57,633 nucleotides of DNA from Alphaproteobacteria bacterium (lineage in GTDB: Bacteria; Pseudomonadota; Alphaproteobacteria; RF32; CAG-239), in contig JAFSWL010000048.1 in assembly GCA_017444525.1 (NCBI GenBank), positions 1-57,633 of the forward strand. Direction: 5' to 3'. The first letter of the stretch is position 1; each line of letters starts with the position of its first letter. The translations under genes were made by a program, and so were the position numbers. A model generated the notes under the pieces. That model made no database searches. It had not been told where the DNA came from and saw only the letters and a program-made list of their open reading frames with translations. Below, one piece after another: positions 910 through 57,121 of the stretch.

Positions 910-3900
910 ATGTTTATCAATGTGAATAAAAAAAATATATTAAGAAACTGCTTATTATTAAGCACAGTTTGTGCTGGATTATTGTTTAGTGAAAATGCAA
1001 GAGCGGAACTGGGTTTAGGATGGGCTGGAAATGGTACTGGTTCATCAACACAATATCTGGTTAAAACATATGGTACTCCAGTAGTTTTTCTTGCTGAAAC
1101 AAATAAAACAAACACATTTACAGGAAGACAAACATTTAGTGAATTGACATTTTCTACCGAAGGTTCAGCGATTGCTAATACTATTGCGACCAGTATTTCA
1201 TCTTCATCAACTGATAATGAATTGATAACAGCAAAAGGTGTTTATGATTATTTAGATAATGCTGGTATCGCTGATATGTCAGTTTATGCCAAAACAGCAG
1301 ATGTGTATGATAATGTATACACCAAATCGCAGACAGATGATAAGTTTGCTACAAAAGAGTCTCTCGGAAGTTATGTTACATCAGAAAGTTTAGGAACAAC
1401 ACTCGGTGGATATATAACAACCGGTGGATTAAATACGGCATTGACACCGTATGCCAAGTCATCTGATGTGGCAGATACATATGCCACAAAAGAGGTATTG
1501 ACCACAGGTTTAGGTAATAAAGTAGATACATCTGTATTTAACGAATATAAGACAGAAGTAGGCAATACATACGCCACAAAAGAAGCATTAGGTAGTTACG
1601 CAAAATCATCTGATATTAGTGATATGTTAACAAAGACAGAAGCAGGAACAACTTACGCTACAAAAAATGAGTTAGACAGTTATGCTAAGTCATCTGATGT
1701 GGCAGATATATATGCCACCAAAGAAGCATTGACGACTGGTTTAGGCAATAAAGTAGATACATCTGTATTTAACGAATATAAAACTTCTGTTAGTGATACT
1801 TATGCTACCAAAGAATCTCTCGGCAATTATGTAACTTCTGAAAGTTTGGGAACAACGCTTGGCGGATATGTTACGACTGGTGGATTGACTTCAGCATTAA
1901 CACCGTACGCTAAATCATCTGATGTTGCGGAAACTTATGCCACAAAAGATTCTATTACTGATATGCTAACTAAAACTGAAGCAAATAGCACTTATGCCAA
2001 AACAGGTGATTCATATACCAAAAGCGAATCTGATGCTAGATATGCTACACAAACAGCAATCAGTGATATGCTGACAAAAACTGAAGCAGGAACAACTTAC
2101 GCTACAAAAAATGAGTTAGGCAGTTATGCCAAGTCATCTGATGTGGCAGATACATACGCTACCAAAGAAGCATTAACTACCGGATTGGGCAACAAAGTGG
2201 ATACATCTGCGTTTAATGAATACAAAACTTCTGTTAGTGATACCTATGCCACCAAAGAATCTCTCGGCAATTATGTAACTTCTGAAAGTTTGGGAACAAC
2301 GCTTGGCGGATATGCCACAAAAGATAGTGTTTATACCAAAGATGAAATCAACACAACTCTCGGAAGTTATGTAAAAATATCAGAAGTAGGTGATTATGTT
2401 GATTTAACGGATTATGCCAAAACTGCTGATGTTTATACACAAACACAGGCGGACGATAAATTTGCGACTAAAACATCGCTAAATGACTATGTTAAATCTG
2501 ATGATTTAAGCGCAACGTTAAATGATTATGCCAAATCAACAGATTTAGATGCTTATGCTAAAACATCAGATATAGCATCTACCTACGCAACAAAAGATTC
2601 GTTGAATGAATACGCAAAATCTGGTGATGTATATTCAAAAAATGATATTGATACAAAATTGGGCGGTTATGTAACATCTGATAATTTAGATACGAAACTC
2701 GGAAGTTATGTTAAATCTGATGACCTTACAACGACTCTCGGTAGTTATGCTAAAACATCAGATTTAGATGCTTATGCCAAGACATCAGATATAGCGGAAA
2801 CATACGCAACAAAAGCATCTCTAAATGATTATGTAAAGTCTGATGCTTTGGATAGTAAATTATCCGGTTATGCTAAAACTGATGATGTGTATTCTAAAAA
2901 TGATATGGATACAAAACTTAATGAATATGTAAAGTCTGACACATTAGACAGCACAATAAATTCAAAACTAACCGGATATGCTAAAACAGAAGATATCGCA
3001 AATACTTATGCCACGAAAACAGAATTAGACGGCAAAGTAGATACTTCTGCGTTTAATACCTATAAGACAGAAGTCGGAAATACTTATGCCACGAAAGATG
3101 AGTTGAACAATAAAGCAGATGCTTCTACCGTTACCGCACTTCAAACAACGGTATCTAATTTAAGTGATACAGTAGATAGCAAAGCAAATCAGTCTGATTT
3201 AGAAGCATTACAAACGACTGTTGCCAGCAAAGCAAATTCGGCTGATGTTTATACCAAAGATGAAGCAGACAGTAAATATGCTACGCAAACAGCCATTAGT
3301 GATATGCTTACCAAGACAGAAGCAGGCAATACTTATGCGACACAATCAGCATTAAGTTCTTATCAAACTTCCAATGATAATGCCGTATCAGCTTTAACAG
3401 GTAAAATGACACAAGCGGAAACAGATATTTCGGACATCAAAGGTTCAGCGGTTATGTCTTCCGGTATTACGGCAGCAAAAGTTGCCGCATACGAAGGATA
3501 TGCCGCATTGATTGATGCCAAGCAAGATGCTTTATCAACCGAACAAATGGCGGTCTTGAACAGTGGAATAACTGCTGCCGACATAGCAACCGTTCAAACA
3601 GCAAATGCTCGTTTGGATGCTATGGATACAACAGTTGCTGATTTAAGTGCTGATTTTGGTGATGTTGCGGACTTTTCGGGTTCAACAACAGGTAACTTGA
3701 AGAATGATATTCCGTCATCGTCAAAACAAAATGCTTCAACCGTTACAAAGGCGATTGCCAATATGGATGCGACAATCGGTCAAATTCACGGACTTGCCGC
3801 AAAAGTCGGTGTTGAAAACGGTGGAGCAAACCTTGGTCAAAACACAACTGTTGAAGAACACGTAACTGCTTTGGCAGGTGCTATCGGAAACAGAACACAT

Positions 3901-53889: not shown

Positions 53890-54597
53890 TCATTTTCTCG
53901 CATCAAAAGTCGTAAATTTAGAGCGTAGGTAAGTAAGCAATTTTTCATCCTTAAAGAACTTTTCGCAATCGCTTTCGGAGGTTGTTATATCGCTCGGAAT
54001 CGGGCGGTATTTTTGAATATAATACTCTTTAATGCCGAGTGCGGACAACTCATCGGCAATCGTATAAATATCGGCAATATCCAGCAGACGCGGATCACAA
54101 GTGGTACGGCACTCAAAGTGTTTACCGCTTTTTATCAATATGTCGAGGCTTTGTTTTATTCTTTCCACGTCGCCCGCTCCGCCGGTAGCGCGCTTATAAT
54201 GTTCGGAATTGAGCGGAGCCTTAATATCAAAACCTACCCAAATTACTTTATCTATAACTTTGGCAAAGGCTTCCGGATTATAACCGCCGGTGTGCAGACC
54301 GATTTCAAATCCCATGGCTTTTACCTCATCCATAGCTTGCGGCAAATTGTTTTGCAACAACGGCTCTCCGCCGGAAAAGACAACAGCGTCAACCATTCCT
54401 CTGCGGTGTTCTAATAAGTGCAATAAATGTTCCCATTTGGCGTCAGTTTCGCCATTCGGGTTTTGCAACGATTGATTGTAACAAAACGGACAGCGCCACG
54501 GACAGCCCTGCATAAATATAACAACGGCTATTTTGGATGGCATATCAACCAAACTGAATTTTTCGATATCACCGATTCTGATCAAATCTTGTTCCAT
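53890..54597 (-). CDS. nrdG: Anaerobic ribonucleotide reductase activating protein NrdG
   Basis: Radical-SAM activase that installs the glycyl radical on NrdD. 235 residues, longer than E. coli NrdG (154) and of the group with a full radical-SAM barrel. MQGCPWRCPFCYNQSL contains the CxxxCxxC cluster motif near residue 31; VVFSGGEPLLQ binds SAM; LHTGGYNP and VGFDIKAPL follow. Lies downstream of nrdD and the small glycyl-radical gene, behind an intervening terminator-like hairpin. Confidence 0.93.
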   Translation of the reverse strand: MEQDLIRIGDIEKFSLVDMPSKIAVVIFMQGCPWRCPFCYNQSLQNPNGETDAKWEHLLHLLEHRRGMVDAVVFSGGEPLLQNNLPQAMDEVKAMGFEIGLHTGGYNPEAFAKVIDKVIWVGFDIKAPLNSEHYKRATGGAGDVERIKQSLDILIKSGKHFECRTTCDPRLLDIADIYTIADELSALGIKEYYIQKYRPIPSDITTSESDCEKFFKDEKLLTYLRSKFTTFDARK

Positions 54598-54663: not shown

Positions 54664-54882
54664 TTATTCGGCGGCCATCTGGCAGCCGCACGGTTCTTCC
54701 AAACTCAGGTGCATAACCGCCTTTTCTTCCACAAAACACTTACGAGAATAGTATTCGGATTTTTTACCCTTGTTGAACTCGGAAACCGGACGGTGATATC
54801 CCATCACACGGGTCCAAACTTCGCACGGTTGTCTTTCGGCGTCGGTTAAAGCTATGTCTTCAAATTTAATTGTGTTTGTCAT
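54664..54882 (-). CDS. Separate glycyl-radical domain of class III ribonucleotide reductase
   Basis: 72 residues. CEVWTRVMGYHRPVSEFNKG holds RVMGY, the equivalent of RVCGY in class III reductases, with the radical glycine at residue 28; the NKGKKSEYYSRK tail is the usual end of NrdD. It has its own AGGAG 7 bases before the ATG and lies 51 bases behind the nrdD stop. The large chain ends before this motif. So it probably docks onto NrdD to complete the active site, in the way GrcA can for pyruvate formate-lyase. Two extra cysteines (CGC) are near its C-terminus. Confidence 0.85.
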   Translation of the reverse strand: MTNTIKFEDIALTDAERQPCEVWTRVMGYHRPVSEFNKGKKSEYYSRKCFVEEKAVMHLSLEEPCGCQMAAE

Positions 54883-54933
54883 TTGTATTCTCCTAAGTGT
54901 TTTTTATGTTTCTGTTATTGGTTCTTGCGGCTT

Positions 54934-57033
54934 TTAAGCAACATTGCTTGCTTTAAATGCCTTCATTTTTGCGGCCTTCTTTTCTTCGTCACATTTCGGG
55001 CAGAATTTATGCTCGCCGGCAAGATAGCCGTGTTTCGGACAAATTGAGAAAGTCGGAGTTATAGTAATATATGGCAGACGATAATTGGTCAGAACTTTTT
55101 TAATCAGCTCGCCGCAAACCTTTGCCGAAGAAATTCTTTGGCTCATATAGAGGTGCAACACGGTACCGCCGGTGTACTTGGATTGCAAGGTTGCCTGCAA
55201 ATCAAGTGCTTCAAACGGATCATCGGTGTAACCGACCGGTAATTGAGAAGAATTGGTATAATACGGATTTTCTTCAGTGCCGGCTTGAATGATGCCAGGA
55301 AAACGTTTTTTATCTTCACGTGCAAAACGATAGGTAGCGCTTTCGGCCGGAGTGGCTTCGAGGTTATACATATGACCGGTTTCTTCTTGAATTTTAATCA
55401 ATTTAGCACGAATGTAATCTAAGAATTTTTCGGCAAATGCTTTACCCCACTCGTCGGCAATATGGTGTTCGTCGTTGGTAAAGTTGCGAATCATTTCGTT
55501 GATGCCGTTAACGCCGATGGTTGAGAAGTGATTGCGCAGTGTGCCCAGATAGCGTTTGGTATACGGATACAGACCGTTATCAATCAGGCGCTGAATGGTT
55601 TTACGCTTAATTTCAAGCGAAGTGCGCGCAATATTTAAAAGTTCATCAACACGTCCGAATAAACCGGCTTCATTTCCTTTATAAACATATCCCAAACGTG
55701 CGCAGTTGAAAGTTACAACGCCGATGGAACCTGTTTGCTCAGCCGAACCGAACAAGCCGTTGCCACGCGCCAAAAGCTCACGCAAGTCAAGTTGCAAACG
55801 GCAGCACATCGAGCGAATCTGCCCCGGTTTTAAGACGGAATTGATAAAGTTTTGAAAATAAGGCATACCGTATTTGGCAGTCATTTCAAACAACAACTGC
55901 GATTTTTCGTCATCCCACGGAAAATCCGGTGTCATATTATATGTCGGAATCGGGAATGTGAACGGACGATCCATAACATCGCCTTCCATCATTACTTCAA
56001 TATAGGCGCGGTTAATCATATCCATTTCTTTTTGCAATTCACCATATGTGAAAGGCATTTCTTCCTGACCTTCGATAATCGGCATAAAGTTTTCGTCGTG
56101 GCCGGCAATATGACCGCCGATGTACGGATGTTGGTCACGTAAATCTTCCGGACACACCCAGTCAAACGTAAAGTTGGTAAACGGTGTCTGCGACCCCCAA
56201 CGAGACGGTACGTTCAGATTGTAAATGAGTTCTTGCATGCACTGCTTAACTTCTTCATACGAAAGGTTATCTTTTCTGATGTATGGAGCAAGGTAAGTAT
56301 CAACCGAAGAAAACGCCTGTGCACCGGCCCATTCGTTTTGTAGTGTACCCATAAAGTTTACCATTTGACCGGTTGCTGCCGACAAGTGCTTAGGTGGATT
56401 GGCTTCAGCTTTGCCGCGAACGCCGTTGAAACCTTCTTTCAAAAGGTTTTTCAATGACCAACCGGCACAATATGCGGCAAGCATATCCAAATCGTGAATA
56501 TGAATATCGCCGTTACGATGTGCTTCGCCTACTTCCGACGGATAAACATGGCTCAACCAGTAGTTAGCCGTAACCTTACCGGAAACGTTCAAAATCAAAC
56601 CGCCGTTGGAATATCCCTGATTAGCATTGGCATTAACACGCCAGTCAAGTTTTTCCAAATACTCATTAATGGAGCTTTCCACATCAACCATAACCTTATG
56701 GTCGGTACGAGCGCGAGTACGTTGATCACGATATAAAATATAGGCCTTTGCGGTTGCCGTGTAGTTTGAAGAAATCAGGGCTTGTTCGACAATGTCCTGA
56801 ATTTGTTCAATACTTGGTACCGATTCGGCAAACTTGTAATTGGCAACTTTCATCACCTGAGCGGTCAAAAGCCAAGCATCGGCTTCGCCGAACTCACCGG
56901 TGGTGGTGCCCGCTTTCAAAATAGCATTATAAATCTTGCTGCCGTCAAAATCTGCCAGCGTTCCGTCACGTTTGGTAACGTGTTTAATGTTAGTGTGTAT
57001 ATTATTCGTGTTCATTTCGTACACTTCGGCCAT
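54934..57033 (-). CDS. nrdD: Anaerobic ribonucleoside-triphosphate reductase, large chain without glycyl-radical motif
   Basis: 699 residues. An ATP-cone (~15-105; VTKRDGTLADFDGSKIYNAI) senses ATP/dATP. The ten-stranded barrel domain includes DIHIHDLDMLAAYCAGW and IRSMCCRLQLDL with Cys410/Cys411, the place of the thiyl cysteine. The C-terminus has the zinc site CPKHGYLAGEHKFCPKC and then stops after KASNVA; the RVxGY glycyl motif is missing and is encoded by the next gene. Start at 57033 with GGGAG upstream; ATG 57015 is possible. Makes dNTPs without oxygen. Probably NrdR-controlled. Confidence 0.93.
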   Translation of the reverse strand: MAEVYEMNTNNIHTNIKHVTKRDGTLADFDGSKIYNAILKAGTTTGEFGEADAWLLTAQVMKVANYKFAESVPSIEQIQDIVEQALISSNYTATAKAYILYRDQRTRARTDHKVMVDVESSINEYLEKLDWRVNANANQGYSNGGLILNVSGKVTANYWLSHVYPSEVGEAHRNGDIHIHDLDMLAAYCAGWSLKNLLKEGFNGVRGKAEANPPKHLSAATGQMVNFMGTLQNEWAGAQAFSSVDTYLAPYIRKDNLSYEEVKQCMQELIYNLNVPSRWGSQTPFTNFTFDWVCPEDLRDQHPYIGGHIAGHDENFMPIIEGQEEMPFTYGELQKEMDMINRAYIEVMMEGDVMDRPFTFPIPTYNMTPDFPWDDEKSQLLFEMTAKYGMPYFQNFINSVLKPGQIRSMCCRLQLDLRELLARGNGLFGSAEQTGSIGVVTFNCARLGYVYKGNEAGLFGRVDELLNIARTSLEIKRKTIQRLIDNGLYPYTKRYLGTLRNHFSTIGVNGINEMIRNFTNDEHHIADEWGKAFAEKFLDYIRAKLIKIQEETGHMYNLEATPAESATYRFAREDKKRFPGIIQAGTEENPYYTNSSQLPVGYTDDPFEALDLQATLQSKYTGGTVLHLYMSQRISSAKVCGELIKKVLTNYRLPYITITPTFSICPKHGYLAGEHKFCPKCDEEKKAAKMKAFKASNVA

Positions 57034-57075: not shown

Positions 57076-57121
57076 CTACTATATATAGTTTAATTAAAAG
57101 TTAAATAACAATATATTGTGT
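57076..57121. promoter_or_regulatory. Two NrdR boxes upstream of nrdD
   Basis: ACTATATATAGT (57078-57089) and ACAATATATTGT (57108-57119) are perfect palindromes whose centres are 30 bp apart, about three helical turns. Both fit the NrdR consensus acaCwAtATaTwGtgt at every core position. NrdR is the ATP/dATP-responsive repressor of ribonucleotide reductase operons. Confidence 0.85.

Follow-up and report, generated by a model that had tools for sequence, protein, structure and literature searches.

The class III ribonucleotide reductase (RNR) encoded in the window, by which is meant the whole 57,633-nucleotide stretch of DNA analysed here, appears to be a two-chain enzyme in which a radical subunit of approximately 50-75 amino acids is separate from the large NrdD chain. 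Sequence comparison gives this reading a probability of roughly 0.85. The two-chain enzyme had been proposed in a preliminary description of the locus and is now strongly supported: the gene is split at 138 of the 139 nrdD loci compared in the order to which the source genome belongs, and no other RNR was detected in 115 of the 154 genomes of the order. Since NrdD is the sole RNR detected in those 115 genomes, the split enzyme is predicted, almost certainly, to be functional. Functional exchange among copies of the radical subunit, including those of phages, is a separate proposal with about an even chance of being correct.

The nrdD locus and the separate radical-glycine protein

The genes nrdD, the small open reading frame (ORF) and nrdG follow each other in this order on the minus strand (Table 1). 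The large chain contained an ATP-cone (PF03477, E = 1.4e-21) and matched both PF13597 (596 bits, gathering threshold 26.2, positions 2-532 of 562) and NF006126 (1113 bits, cut-off 548, positions 3-653 of the 684 of the profile). Its adjacent cysteines 410 and 411, in the motif SMCCR, correspond to the MCCR class of the two finger-loop motif classes, MGCR and MCCR, given for class III RNR in an extract of PMC9669993. The zinc knuckle, CPKHGY...CPKC, is followed by the end of the chain at ...KASNVA. The ATP-cone, Cys410/411, the zinc site and the stop after KASNVA had all been correctly recognised in the preliminary description. RVxGY, and with it the radical glycine that class III RNR carries on the same chain, was absent from the 699 amino acids.

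Table 1 Features of the nrdD locus in the window
Feature	Positions	Strand	Remarks
nrdD large chain, 699 aa	54934..57033	minus	ATP-cone, barrel, SMCCR finger loop (Cys410/411), zinc knuckle
Putative radical subunit of 72 aa containing ERQPCEVWTRVMGYHRPVSEFNKGKK, with Gly28 as radical glycine	54664..54882	minus	PF13597 end segment
nrdD/small-ORF junction, 51 nt = 17 codons	54883..54933	minus	AGGAG at 54890-54894
nrdG, 235 aa, radical-SAM activase	53890..54597	minus	NrdG2 family, TIGR02495
NrdR box, one of the pair upstream of nrdD	57076..57091		
NrdR box, second of the nrdD pair	57106..57121		14-bp spacer

The motif was found instead, as RVMGY with Gly28, on the separate 72-residue ORF, which, as first reported, begins 51 bases further on and has its own AGGAG; this is located 7 nt 5' of the ATG. 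The small protein matched PF13597 at positions 530-562 of 562 (E = 4.5e-8, 32.6 bits, gathering threshold 26.2). This was its only Pfam match up to E = 1, and the PFL-type (pyruvate formate-lyase-type) glycyl radical domain, which we take to be PF01228, was thus not detected in it. It nonetheless resembles GrcA/YfiD in being small, standing alone and having a radical-glycine motif. Because the radical glycine is located on this protein, the pair, rather than the large chain alone, is read as the class III RNR. An activase is encoded nearby, as shown by the match of NrdG to TIGR02495 (193.3 bits, cut-off 131.15).

The large chain aligned with the NrdD of T. maritima up to residue 613 (E = 3.5e-28), and residues 21-53 of the small protein aligned with residues 614-646 of the same enzyme, Gly28 falling on Gly621, in an alignment (E = 0.58) that is informative for register only. 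Gly621 is the radical site of T. maritima NrdD (PMC4493059, in part). With the one alignment ending at residue 613 and the other starting at 614, the two proteins of the window together tile one ordinary NrdD.

The preliminary description was mistaken in stating that the two ORFs share no frame. Since the gap of 51 nt equals 17 codons, the small ORF is in the frame of nrdD, and two in-frame TAA codons, one of them inside the junction, lie between. Its statement that the split is neither a fresh frameshift nor an assembly slip held, now on the evidence of the order, in which each of the three possible frames with respect to nrdD was used by the small ORF (at 36, 65 and 37 of 138 loci). Read-through, frameshifting and assembly slips were ruled out by this variation in frame. 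The common frame and the 17-codon gap in the window are what might suggest that a fused NrdD is still produced by stop read-through or frameshifting; this is extremely improbable, considering the frames at the other loci, the two TAA codons in the window, the location of the small gene on another contig than nrdD in three genomes of a class-wide sample, and the orphan and most viral copies described below, which have no nrdD ahead of them.

The source genome, a draft which is 86 % complete, contained one NrdD and two small genes. A second full-length nrdD, which could have been the real enzyme, was looked for in this 86 %-complete draft and none was found, and the class I/II RNR barrel PF02867, which would be expected for NrdJab, had no match in it. 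The nearest named row to the window NrdD in the tree of large chains described below was that of an uncultured Rhodospirillaceae metagenome-assembled genome (MAG), with 93 % identity.

Distribution of the split nrdD

The small protein was found in at least 146 of the 154 genomes of the order, no listed match being in an open frame longer than 150 amino acids, and with such a distribution the small ORF cannot be regarded as a chance ORF. NrdD was found in 147 genomes, of which 139 were included in a census of nrdD 3' ends, with one locus per genome, most of the genomes being drafts in many contigs; eight were left out (G066, G078, G081, G095, G100, G108, G139 and G140, the first six with partial genes). 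The small gene was located downstream of nrdD on the same strand at 138 of the 139 loci. A fused nrdD was found at none of the 139, the one remaining locus running off its contig. The gap between the two genes was 25-283 nt with a median of 34 nt over the 138 loci, when the start of the small gene was picked by the best SD; gap lengths depend on this choice of start and the frames given above are independent of it.

Class I/II RNR (PF02867) was present in 32 of the 154 genomes, none of them from the genus of the window, and all 32 also carried NrdD, leaving NrdD as the only RNR detected in the 115 genomes mentioned above. These 32 genomes, together with a stop inside one nrdD (in the draft genome G112, whose gene at 998-3097 of locus L036 contains one internal TAA), are the observations that would favour regarding the large chain as a decaying remnant in cells served by another RNR. 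With no PF02867 found in 122 of the 154 genomes, including that of the window, and with NrdD kept in 147, such decay is very hard to credit.

Seven genomes of the order had no NrdD match, and a looser search of those seven revealed no chain either. Neither NrdD nor PF02867 was found in G032, G061 (approximately 100 % complete) and G122 (98 % complete), the last of which retained an orphan small gene with NrdR boxes. Either missing sequence or an unrecognised source of dNTP could account for these three genomes.

The split enzyme was also found outside the order. In a sample of 385 genomes of the class, 46 had a match to PF13597, of which 32 were split and 12 fused; of the other two, one was cut by a contig end (G502) and one had the small gene only (G526). 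The small gene was on a different contig from nrdD in G423, G255 and G449 of this sample. Among 398 genomes sampled from the phylum, 58 had a PF13597 match, above the cut-off in 56 of them, and ten further genomes were split as judged by the ranges of the PF13597 matches. Of the best 80 contig loci by similarity to a fused relative, a ranking which favours relatives of the query, 73 were split, 4 were fused and 3 had no small gene in the locus. Splits were seen in Pseudomonas fluvialis, P. brassicacearum, P. chlororaphis, Stutzerimonas stutzeri and Thiobacillus thioparus, in Hydrogenophaga, Undibacterium and Parasutterella, and in MAGs labelled Omnitrophota, Acidobacteria, Actinobacteria, Elusimicrobia and Zipacnadia.

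Matches were obtained in 29 plasmid records, and the nine examined included splits in Paracoccus, Bradyrhizobium, Shinella and Cupriavidus necator H16, among others. The NrdD of C. necator H16 (676 amino acids) lacks the radical-glycine motif, which is on a neighbouring protein of 66 amino acids. The abstract of a study of this NrdD reportedly gives 76.2 kDa for the protein, a mass that would fit the large chain alone. In C. metallidurans, nrdD and nrdG are Rmet_5137 and Rmet_5139, with one number between them (PMC2864759, in part). On the plasmid pS11L-3 of Bradyrhizobium japonicum (L214, 459-3945) an IS3-like transposase gene separates two pieces of the large nrdD, and the small gene and nrdG are still present.

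The preliminary description had left it undecided whether short proteins of this kind are already described in relatives. They are present in annotation, a small ORF of 59-66 amino acids being named nrdD in six RefSeq plasmid records, four of which label the large chain 'ribonucleoside triphosphate reductase', and being 'hypothetical' in a GenBank record of a Paracoccus plasmid. The searchable, open-access literature yielded no account of an NrdD radical subunit encoded on its own; an earlier mention may exist elsewhere.

A quick tree was made from 109 large chains, some of them on long branches. Split rows occupied most of it and the 15 fused rows required five changes, which could represent either several fusions or repeated splits. 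The state can evidently change, since one fork closely joins fused and split rows (L234 and L341). A distantly related NrdD, scoring approximately 90 bits against the window chain, was split as well in G310 and G859, two genomes of the same class assembled in 1-2 contigs each (L063 at 3399-3594 and L268 at 3399-3594). In these, a NrdD of 682 amino acids is followed after 12 nt by an ORF of 60 amino acids containing RRITGY (PF13597 positions 533-562), in the same frame and after one stop, and the next ORF has a radical-SAM-like motif.

The gene order nrdD-small gene, kept at 138 of 139 loci, and the split rows in most of the tree would both also be expected if the gene had been divided long ago and the small chain were a permanent partner which is not exchanged, extra copies serving only for dosage. 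We consider such a permanent partnership a serious alternative, with somewhat less than an even chance of being correct; the observations that speak against it are the displaced small genes of G423, G255 and G449 and the copies described in the next section.

Stand-alone copies in cells and phages

At least 21 of the 27 genomes of the window's genus had two or more small genes. In the source genome the second, orphan copy is on contig C48, where it follows atpC and stands alone. The letters used in scoring NrdR boxes were those which we take to be the box consensus. Paired NrdR boxes were present approximately 80-100 nt before the start of the orphan in all 22 loci tested (20 from the window's genus and 2 from another genus), scoring 26-29 of 32, and none of 200 mononucleotide shuffles scored as well. 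This test covered neither locus L102, with only 44 nt 5' of the gene, nor the additional second copies of other genera, for example those of G012, G063, G067 and G101. With the threshold set at 25 of 32, the 57.6-kb window contained a single pair, before nrdD, and the 16-kb stretch of C48 likewise a single pair, before the orphan. At nrdD loci L033-L061 the pair reached the threshold in 23 of 29 and was below it in 6. The source genome encodes NrdR. In the published geometry NrdR binds a pair of 16-bp palindromes whose spacing is mostly 15-16 bp, spacings of 14-17 bp being bound (PMC12051234, in part). In a 40-codon core, pN/pS was 0.118 among 20 orphans and 0.093 among 26 operon entries, which include one genome twice; silent sites were near saturation in this comparison.

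Seven further copies of the small gene, in five genomes of the order, were located among phage genes (L112-L115 and L117-L119), the neighbours including genes for integrase, endolysin, tail proteins, reverse transcriptase and DNA polymerase; prophage status was assigned to L113 and L119 through shared neighbours and to L118 through weak tail matches. None of the seven had NrdR boxes. On the 80-kb contig C42 of G105, the segments L112 and L113 are approximately 42 kb apart, have matching gene order and each contain the same stand-alone small gene, from duplication or as an effect of assembly.

When IMG/VR was scanned with the small protein of the window and the best 80 of 151 matched stretches were kept, a ranking which favours relatives of the query, 77 of the 80 contained the small ORF and one (L153) contained an NrdD chain. 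The sequences included near-copies, 64 of 76 trimmed sequences being distinct. Of 50 whole records from the best 80, PF13597 matched the radical segment only in 48 (one of which, G913, has a second weak match), also NrdD in one and nothing in one; viral records of this type may be fragments. Phage genes were nearby at the six viral loci examined (integrase, tape measure, terminase and portal, or DNA polymerase and primase), and all ten viral small proteins tested matched phrog_4132, a family of 'unknown function'. The radical glycine was kept in 77 of 77 viral copies, which is weak evidence, since the copies were found by similarity and partly via the motif itself. A tblastn search of 50,697 GenBank phage records with three small proteins revealed no stand-alone small gene; only two records were found, ANMV-1, with an NrdD as judged by annotation, and MT835493.1, with a fused NrdD.

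Some of these stretches had further unusual features. The viral split NrdD of L153 (7389-9815) is interrupted, precisely between its finger-loop cysteines, by an intein-like insertion, which matched the Pfam domain Intein_splicing with E = 0.0022, below the cut-off. In the gut phage MT835493.1 (L221, 4033-6441) the NrdD radical domain is followed on the same chain by a glutaredoxin/thioredoxin domain. Reverse transcriptase genes occurred in two small-gene phage stretches (L115, 1759-2871; L132, 6823-8055, the latter beside a tail-fibre match), which is suggestive of a diversity-generating retroelement.

The NrdR-boxed orphans, the viral copies without NrdD and the displaced small genes of G423, G255 and G449 indicate that, at a minimum, the radical subunit is provided in trans, and they speak against the permanent-partner explanation. 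Together, the NrdR-boxed orphans and the prophage and viral copies provide indirect support for an exchangeable subunit.

Predicted mechanism and comparison with known systems

In the proposed enzyme, the large NrdD chain would provide nucleotide binding, the reactive cysteines and the zinc knuckle, and the 72-residue chain, judging by homology to fused enzymes, would dock into the mouth of the barrel, in the place taken by the C-terminal loop of ordinary NrdD. NrdG would form the glycyl radical on Gly28 of the small chain, and this radical would start catalysis via Cys410 or Cys411. Operon, NrdR-boxed orphan and phage copies of the small chain may be interchangeable in trans.

Exposure of class III RNR to oxygen leads to cleavage at its glycyl radical (PMC3019208, in part), and the damaged part would therefore be the small chain. 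A cleaved subunit of approximately 8 kDa could presumably be replaced without remaking the large chain of approximately 79 kDa, and a swap of this type after oxygen damage would be analogous to what GrcA does for PFL. The stand-alone subunits of phages might likewise plug into the split NrdD of the host in the course of an infection, giving fresh radicals and more dNTP, with the cells keeping an NrdR-controlled spare; they would then be for class III RNR what YfiD and Y06I are for PFL. The chances for and against this phage scenario seem to us about equal.

A stricter analogy with GrcA would have the small protein mainly repairing oxygen-cleaved enzyme. Glycyl radical enzymes are damaged by oxygen at their radical site and YfiD rescues PFL that has been cleaved, according to the portion of PMC8683613 available, and the orphan and phage copies are arranged like YfiD of E. 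coli and Y06I of T4. The small chain would, however, be needed from the start, because a radical domain is missing from the large chain (none of the 139 loci being fused), and no free-standing copy was detected with Pfam in genomes of the class and phylum samples with a fused NrdD. Repair of a cleaved fused NrdD is thus without support in these samples, although copies may be missed, since PF13597 scores only approximately 24-43 bits on such short proteins. A role confined mainly to repair is accordingly possible but rather doubtful.

If the two-chain reading is correct, NrdD and NrdG alone from organisms with the split gene should give an inactive enzyme, radical exchange in an essential enzyme would become directly testable, and a function would be suggested for the phage family PHROG 4132. 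The protein of approximately 50-75 amino acids concerned is at present annotated as 'nrdD' or 'hypothetical', including in C. necator H16 and several Pseudomonas. In published accounts, as far as the portions available extend, the glycyl radical belongs to the NrdD chain itself, and here a broad clade has a separate protein for it.

The canonical NrdD of E. coli, phage T4, T. maritima and P. copri has in common with the enzyme described here the barrel, the ATP-cone (in most), the finger-loop cysteines, the zinc knuckle, the radical-glycine motif and NrdG, and differs from it in that the radical glycine is here on a separate polypeptide. The split class II RNR NrdJa/NrdJb of Pseudomonas aeruginosa is likewise in two chains, cut near the C-terminus, but NrdJab is a B12 enzyme. 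Phage nrdD genes split by introns or inteins are also in pieces; in the available part of PMC3653736 these are ascribed to the introns or inteins, with no free radical subunit. YfiD/GrcA and T4 Y06I, the spare parts for PFL, are also small stand-alone glycyl-radical proteins activated for a larger partner and have both cellular and phage forms. According to PMC8683613, in the portion available, validation extends to YfiD and Y06I alone, and proteins of this type serving other glycyl radical enzymes are a possibility and a matter of speculation. Unlike these, the small protein described here is of the NrdD type rather than the PFL type, and it is paired with a large chain that lacks a radical domain.
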